A stretch of DNA of 64,000 bases. Origin: Candidatus Ecksteinia adelgidicola. GTDB lineage: Bacteria > Pseudomonadota > Gammaproteobacteria > Enterobacterales > Enterobacteriaceae. The first letter of the stretch is position 1. Every line of letters begins with the position of its first letter. Made by a program: the position numbers and the translations under genes. The notes beneath the pieces are model-generated. The model was not told where the DNA came from. It searched no databases and worked only from the letters and a program-made list of their open reading frames with translations. This document shows, piece after piece, positions 47,864-49,688 of the stretch. The stretch is from assembly GCA_020541345.1 (NCBI GenBank), contig CP045239.1, positions 682,001 to 746,000 on the forward strand, read 5' to 3'.

Positions 47864-49057
47864 TTATGCTTGTAATGAATAAGAAAAAGCATAAATCTTT
47901 CCATTTCGAGCTTGAATAAACAATTTATCGTTTATTGCTATAGGTGAAGATAGAAAACCAGAATTATCAATTTTATATTTAGTTATAAAACGACCATCTC
48001 TAACACTGATCCAATACAAGTAGCCTTTAGTATCACCAGTTATAAGATAATCATGAAATATTACTGGAGATGTTAAATTATGATGTAATAATTTTTTTTG
48101 TTTCCATATAGTATGTCCATCTTGAGTATTTATTGCTAATATATTTCCATTTTGATCAGTTAAATAAATATAGTGTGATAAAACAATAAAATCATTAATT
48201 AATCCTAAACTACGATTCCATAAAATTTGACCAGAATAAAAATCTAGTGATGTAAAATTTCCGTTATAAGCTGATGCATAAATAATATCTTTAACAATTA
48301 TGGGTGTAGTATCTATATCATGAATATTATCAACTTCAGTTATTTTTTTTGACGAAGCAATGCGATGATCCCAGATTAATTGCCCGTGATTTAATGAAAT
48401 AGCGCTTATTTTCCCAGTATCACTACCAACAATTACTGTATCAAATGCTATACATGGGGAAGATTCTCCACGCAAAGAAAAAGATAGTTGTTCTAAACTT
48501 ATCGTCCATTTTATAATACCGTTAGATTTATAAAGTGCTTGTAATTGACCATTAGATGTATGAATTAATACTAATCTTTTACTGACTACTGGACGAGATA
48601 TTGCTTCTCCTGCTACTTTTGATTTCCAAGCAATGCTACCATCAGAAATATTTAATGCATAAACGATTCCGTATTCACTACAAACATAAAGCTTGTTATC
48701 TGATACTGTTACCCCTCCAGCTAACATAGCTGACTGTTTATGAAATAAAAAACGATCGTTATTTAAAAGATTTATTTTCCATTTTTCATGACCAGTATTA
48801 CTGTCCATGGCCTTAATTATCCCGTAACGATCAGCTGCATAAACAGTATTATTTTGAAAATCTAAACAAAGATGAGAGTAAAATTTTCCGGTTCCATGTC
48901 CAACTGACGTGTGCCATATATTTTTTAAAGTAAAAGGATGCTTTATTTTATTTAATGATGACATCATCATTAAATTTTCTTCTTTTCTTTGAAGAGAACA
49001 CGCGTTTATAAAAATTAAAAATATAAAAATAACAAAAAATTTTTTATATAGTTTTAT
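47864..49057 (-). CDS. bamB: Outer-membrane assembly lipoprotein BamB, apparent ATA start
   Basis: Lipoprotein subunit of the BAM complex that inserts beta-barrel proteins, anchored in the outer membrane; an eight-bladed PQQ-type propeller (repeats such as GHEKWK, GSIAWK, GQILWN, GHTIWK). From the first canonical ATG (48970) the protein would lack any signal peptide. Reading upstream in the same frame gives a short basic start KLYKK, a hydrophobic run and lipobox INAC, with the cysteine at codon 49000-48998. This begins at ATA (49057-49055), 5 nt after a strong AAGGAGG that overlaps the yfgM stop. No ATG, GTG or TTG lies in frame between. I infer that ATG mutated to ATA and is still used; the alternative is a shorter cytosolic protein from 48970. 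Confidence 0.88.
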   Translation of the reverse strand: MKLYKKFFVIFIFLIFINACSLQRKEENLMMMSSLNKIKHPFTLKNIWHTSVGHGTGKFYSHLCLDFQNNTVYAADRYGIIKAMDSNTGHEKWKINLLNNDRFLFHKQSAMLAGGVTVSDNKLYVCSEYGIVYALNISDGSIAWKSKVAGEAISRPVVSKRLVLIHTSNGQLQALYKSNGIIKWTISLEQLSFSLRGESSPCIAFDTVIVGSDTGKISAISLNHGQLIWDHRIASSKKITEVDNIHDIDTTPIIVKDIIYASAYNGNFTSLDFYSGQILWNRSLGLINDFIVLSHYIYLTDQNGNILAINTQDGHTIWKQKKLLHHNLTSPVIFHDYLITGDTKGYLYWISVRDGRFITKYKIDNSGFLSSPIAINDKLFIQARNGKIYAFSYSLQA

Positions 49058-49062
49058 AACAA

Positions 49063-49069
49063 CCTCCTT
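49063..49069 (-). promoter_or_regulatory. Strong ribosome binding site for bamB
   Basis: AAGGAGG on the minus strand, overlapping the TAA of yfgM (49070-49068). It is the best Shine-Dalgarno match noticed in the window and sits 5 nt before an ATA codon that opens a perfect lipoprotein signal, which decides the likely bamB start and suggests translational coupling to yfgM. Confidence 0.8.
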
Positions 49070-49688
49070 AACAAGGTAAATTATTTAATTTTATTCGAAC
49101 TAATTCCTGAAGTGTTGGAGAAATTTTCGATTCAACAACTGAGCTATAAGTTTTTTTAGCTTCTTTTATCTTTCCTTGTATTAATAAGACATCGCCACGT
49201 ATATTTTGTGCTAGTTCGATCCAATCTAGATTTTTTATATGATCTAATGTTTTTAAAGCTTCATCGAATTTTTTTTCTTGTAATTGAATTCGCGCTAAAC
49301 GTAAATAAATTTGAGTAAGAATATTCTTATCTTGAGTTTTTATTTCTTCATAAATAAGTATTTTCTCTGCTTTAAAAAAGTTATTTTTATTAACAAAATA
49401 TTTTGCTAATTCTAATGCAACTAATACACCATAGATATTATTATTATTCTTAATAAATTTATGAATTTCTATTATTTTATTTTGTTTACTACTATTCAAT
49501 AGATTATTGATTTCTTGATAAAATTGAGATGTTTGTGTTAAATTAGATTGTTTTTTATTTTTCGAAAAAAAACATGTGCTTGATATAGCAATAATAATAG
49601 CTAAGCTTATTAACAACACTTTAAAATTTTTAATAAAAAATTGACAAAAAATGTTAAATTTTTTATTTTTAATAATATTAATTATCAT
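49068..49688 (-). CDS. yfgM: YfgM, SecYEG-associated inner-membrane TPR protein
   Basis: Inner-membrane protein with a large periplasmic TPR domain; in E. coli it joins PpiD at the Sec translocon and helps hand proteins to periplasmic chaperones. A single membrane segment lies at about residues 24-42 after a basic stretch, followed by helical repeats (for example LRLARIQLQEKKFDEALKTL). The 206 residues equal the E. coli length. It lies 12 nt after hisS with AGAGAA as ribosome binding site, and its stop overlaps the bamB ribosome binding site. Overall residue identity is lower than for other genes here, and position in the operon supports the call. Confidence 0.9.
   Translation of the reverse strand: MIINIIKNKKFNIFCQFFIKNFKVLLISLAIIIAISSTCFFSKNKKQSNLTQTSQFYQEINNLLNSSKQNKIIEIHKFIKNNNNIYGVLVALELAKYFVNKNNFFKAEKILIYEEIKTQDKNILTQIYLRLARIQLQEKKFDEALKTLDHIKNLDWIELAQNIRGDVLLIQGKIKEAKKTYSSVVESKISPTLQELVRIKLNNLPC

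Follow-up and report, generated by a model that had tools for sequence, protein, structure and literature searches.

The bamB locus

The window, a stretch of 64,000 nucleotides, belongs to an AT-saturated enterobacterial genome that is shrinking and resembles that of an insect symbiont. About 45% of the window is coding according to its own ORF list, and its intergenic DNA is 11% GC, as in a genome in mid-reduction. On the minus strand, a frame stays open from 47864 to beyond 49057, free of frameshifts and stops. Read from an ATA codon, it comprises 397 codons and a stop (47864..49057). The 397-residue product scores above the cut-offs of NF008351 (475.7 bits, cut-off 423) and TIGR03300 (361.4 bits, cut-off 285.2), and aligns with the solved E. 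coli BamB over nearly its whole length. Gene order is hisS-yfgM-bamB-der, as in Enterobacterales. Judged by family scores and gene order, the gene is bamB. Directly upstream lies yfgM (49068..49688, minus strand), whose TAA stop (49070-49068) is followed after 10 nt by the ATA, the same yfgM-bamB spacing as in E. coli K-12.

Around the start, the minus strand reads TTGTTAAGGAGGTTGTT ATA AAA CTA TAT AAA AAA. An earlier sequence-only reading had placed the ATA at 49057-49055, 5 nt after an AAGGAGG that overlaps the yfgM stop; coordinates and sequence are confirmed, the motif lying at 49069-49063. It had also described the 29 codons between this ATA and the first canonical in-frame start, an ATG at 48968..48970 (minus strand), as devoid of ATG, GTG and TTG, and reading the frame upstream of that ATG yields none of the three. 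Beyond the ATA the frame continues open for 9 further codons, with an ATA (49084) and an ATT (49081) side by side (49079..49084, minus strand), no canonical start and no Shine-Dalgarno (SD) sequence; these two codons are unlikely as alternative starts.

Read from the ATA, the extension encodes IKLYKKFFVIFIFLIFINAC followed by S (signal peptide and lipobox at 48998..49057, minus strand), with a basic start, a hydrophobic core and an INAC lipobox. The Cys expected to be lipidated is at codon 20, 19 codons past the ATA, with Ser at +2. This position is that of E. coli and most relatives, in agreement with the lipoprotein signal recognized in the earlier reading. The Asn at -2 is unusual, yet another symbiont (G014) has LLNGC.

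Translation might instead start only at the ATG at 48970, giving a signal-less cytoplasmic protein, or at the AUU or AUA upstream, which have no SD. At 48970 three consecutive codons (ATG ATG ATG) stand in an A-rich context, which speaks for initiation there. The SD energy of this site is only -1.8 kcal/mol, however, and a periplasmic propeller that binds BamA would be stranded in the cytoplasm. The signal peptide with its Cys at codon 20 is present only when bamB is read from the ATA, and its retention, together with a perfect SD in front of 49057, would be left unexplained. We consider this set of alternative starts highly improbable.

Start codons of bamB in relatives

We retrieved the bamB loci of relatives belonging to the same family and order, and read their starts individually. 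At the column of the ATA (49055..49057, minus strand), some 19 codons ahead of the lipobox Cys, the relatives have an ATG, and in the alignment M is invariant at this column in 24 of 24 large-genome relatives. Because relatives carry ATG at the homologous column, the ATA derives from an ATG through a G-to-A change. It is thus by comparison that an ancestral bamB ATG is shown to have mutated to ATA, in line with extreme AT bias, which is the change that had been proposed from the sequence.

The sole exception among the loci read is a symbiont with a 0.6-Mb genome (G008, locus L187:640-760). There, the bamB ATG and the signal peptide are in different frames, with an A7 tract between them, and slippage at this tract could bring the two back into frame. 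Over the whole protein, the BamB studied here keeps 79 of the 104 columns invariant in relatives, four other listed genomes keep 85 to 91, and G008 keeps 59. No close relatives of the protein were found in the genome collection searched.

The sole congener in the genome set (G001) has lost bamB but keeps BamA. Its bamB slot (L182:609-1702) consists of 1.1 kb made up almost entirely of A+T, in which at most a faint trace of the gene survives (best tblastn E 0.025), too eroded for its start to be read. Comparison of the codon in related genomes, which had been suggested as a check, therefore returned M in the large-genome relatives, the only congener examined being without the gene. A non-canonical bamB start shared with related genomes was not found among these loci. 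Since the congener has no bamB, loss of the gene is tolerable in the genus.

An exceptional Shine-Dalgarno sequence

The SD of bamB, TAAGGAGGT (49062..49070, minus strand), is a 9-nt perfect complement of the 16S tail, and its first three bases are the yfgM stop TAA. The 16S 3' end of this genome reads GGATCACCTCCTTA, and the anti-SD was verified there. A spacing of 5 nt is near the best for such an SD. Its duplex energy with the 16S tail, -13.3 kcal/mol, is the strongest that we found. Sixty genes of the same genome with a conserved canonical start have a median of -3.8 and a best value of -9.2 kcal/mol, so that bamB ranks first. When the best of the first three starts was taken in 171 long ORFs, the strongest SD reached -10.8 kcal/mol, below that of bamB. 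The bamB sites of 28 relatives are all weaker too (mean -7.2, best -9.2 kcal/mol), and random 19-nt stretches of the genome equal the bamB value at about 1e-4. The ribosome binding site, already described as strong, is exceptional compared with the rest of the genome.

The sequence TAAGGAGGT has three occurrences in 980 kb: the bamB SD, the complement of the 16S 3' end, and an antisense copy inside a gene reading as priA. It serves as an SD nowhere else in the genome. In the yfgM-bamB spacer, 5 of 10 bases are G, against 5.6% G in the intergenic DNA of the window. At the same site, the congener lacking bamB reads TAAAAATATT, and its spacer after yfgM begins AAATATTATA. Such a density of G in G-poor DNA, together with the changed spacer of the congener, indicates that the SD has been kept, or strengthened, against mutation. 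Signs of a pseudogene, whether an interrupted frame or a decayed SD, were not found in bamB. A weak hairpin is predicted between the end of yfgM (ACCUU) and the SD (49056..49084, minus strand), no better than in shuffled sequences (z -0.31), and a special RNA structure at the bamB start is unsupported.

Were the ATA due to random recent loss of the gene or to a base error, chance would have had to place it in the very gene whose SD is strongest, with odds of roughly 1 in 60 to 1 in 170; this favours use of the codon. The case for use depends chiefly on this point, which is statistical and bears on one gene in one genome, at a site chosen by a reader aware of the SD.

The ATA is known from one assembly, in which a single base decides, and a consensus or sequencing error at that base, the true codon being ATG, would account for it. 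Substitution errors are rare in finished genomes, which counts against this explanation. The assembly does not look error-rich, as about 46 mapped genes have no internal break (a loose count, antisense and rRNA frames included), and the coincidence with an extreme SD would again be left unexplained. We hold such an error to be improbable.

Survey of start codons

The survey covered 464 kb (47% of the 980-kb genome, window included), compared with 2.0 Mb of the large-genome relative closest by BamB protein (G025); counts were taken with overlapping antisense and rRNA frames removed. Sixty of the 95 mapped reading frames have a canonical start aligned to one in this relative (56 ATG, 3 GTG, 1 TTG). 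Among about 90 genes, bamB alone shows homology that passes its first canonical start and extends to the reference ATG with no canonical codon there. The remaining flagged cases reflect similarity that extends upstream of an ATG common to both genomes, except for one, which is the broken lolD.

The organism carries a second AUH start: infC, which was examined separately (L065:1228-1245), keeps the AUU known from E. coli, with the site TTGGAGG at -10.7 kcal/mol. This AUU and its strong SD raise the possibility that the IF3 start-codon discrimination loop still operates in a reduced genome. IF3 is intact and the initiator tRNA is normal. We considered an altered initiator tRNA but rejected it, since the three tRNAs with a CAU anticodon look normal and no UAU anticodon was seen among the loci scanned.

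Like other members of the AUH-start class, bamB has an AUH codon at the homologous start and no canonical start upstream in frame. It also shares the unusually strong, well-spaced SD of infC, pcnB and ccpN.

Lipoprotein modification and sorting

The window encodes Lgt, and LspA, Lnt, BamA and BamD are present too, as is a BamE-like ORF. The lolCDE cluster (contig about 347753-350902; L073:4753-7902) is broken by frameshifts, several of them at A or T runs: lolC and lolE are frameshifted, and lolD combines a frameshift close to its start with a TGA. An HMM search did not find LolA, and the lolB-like ORF is the only intact one of the Lol system. Intact Lol delivery to the outer membrane, a feature of the pathway and not of BamB itself, was therefore not found. 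With the Lol system broken, the usual sorting of mature lipoproteins to the outer membrane probably does not take place. In this genome, the modifying enzymes outlast the transporter, lgt, lspA, lnt, lolB, bamA and bamD being intact.

The sequence-only reading had argued that BamB without its lipid anchor would be useless. The argument is weaker than stated: it presumes a working Lol system, yet lolCDE is broken and LolA was not found.

Probable use of the AUA codon

The question arises as to what has become of bamB expression. We consider it probable that AUA initiation at bamB is real and functional, although weak, and compensated by the extended SD. The gene would still be translated from AUA, at a reduced rate, by the ordinary initiator tRNA. 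The extended and well-spaced SD may keep the 30S subunit at the codon for so long that the near-cognate AUA is accepted. Ribosomes that end yfgM 10 nt upstream probably help, through a translational coupling that would deliver subunits and open the site or its hairpin. The predicted product is a complete BamB precursor that begins with Met. It would be exported, then lipidated by Lgt, LspA and Lnt, all three encoded in the genome. Its arrival at the outer membrane is doubtful, given the broken Lol system.

The decay of envelope lipoprotein genes weakens the case for AUA use: bamB is absent from the only congener, and in the same genome lolCDE is broken and LolA was not found. These observations point to a different scenario, a very recent loss, in which the start mutation silenced bamB while frame and SD had no time to decay. 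That the congener lost bamB and kept BamA fits such a loss, as do the Lol defects and the low coding fraction of the window; decay can easily begin with a start mutation. Against this scenario, mutation would have had to strike by chance the one gene that, of about 60 to 170, has the strongest SD, and the 397 codons of bamB bear no other lesion. We regard recent loss as unlikely, although it deserves to be kept in mind.

If AUA is indeed used, a tentative history may be proposed. The G-to-A change at the start would have been fixed under AT pressure and compensated by evolution of the strongest SD of the genome, with expression set low, bamB and infC being the two visible AUH cases. This sequence of events is possible, and we would not put it higher. 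Were it true, genes could survive the erosion of their start codons through strengthening of the SD. bamB also provides an opportunity to test whether an SD can compensate for start-codon decay where G is being purged from the genome. There is also a practical consequence, as annotation limited to ATG, GTG and TTG would set the bamB start 29 codons late and omit the signal peptide, or else treat the gene as broken.

Comparison with known systems

With BamB (YfgL) of Enterobacterales, the gene shares its order, family scores above the cut-offs and the 10-nt spacing of E. coli; it differs in its ATA and in a far stronger SD. To our knowledge, few natural AUA starts have been described in bacteria, and no ATA start in an endosymbiont was found in the literature searched. 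In E. coli, infC and pcnB have AUU starts that limit expression. bamB resembles them in its near-cognate AUH start, and the infC AUU with a strong SD is also found in the present genome. IF3 autoregulation fits infC; we know of no such role for BamB.

A closer parallel to the mutation itself is an E. coli rpoS mutant with ATG changed to ATA, which makes at most 5-fold less protein (PMC12864459). As in bamB, a single G-to-A change affects the start, and the rpoS protein is lowered, not abolished. The rpoS change arose in culture, with no SD change mentioned in the passages considered, whereas that of bamB stands in a natural genome behind an SD stronger than those of its relatives. Values quoted in the same paper are less favourable to AUA use: in E. 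coli reporters, ATA gave up to about 1% of the output of ATG (Hecht 2017, quoted in PMC12864459).

In S. aureus, initiation profiling located the AUA starts of infC and ccpN, for which extended SDs are predicted, and AUA in ccpN and citZ gave about 10-30% of the AUG output (PMC13009471). bamB would share with infC and ccpN the combination of an AUA start and an extended SD. The ccpN AUA is conserved and tied to regulation, whereas the bamB ATA occurs in one genome, a decaying one, and in an envelope gene. AUA starts are thus already known in bacteria, and bamB would add a further example.
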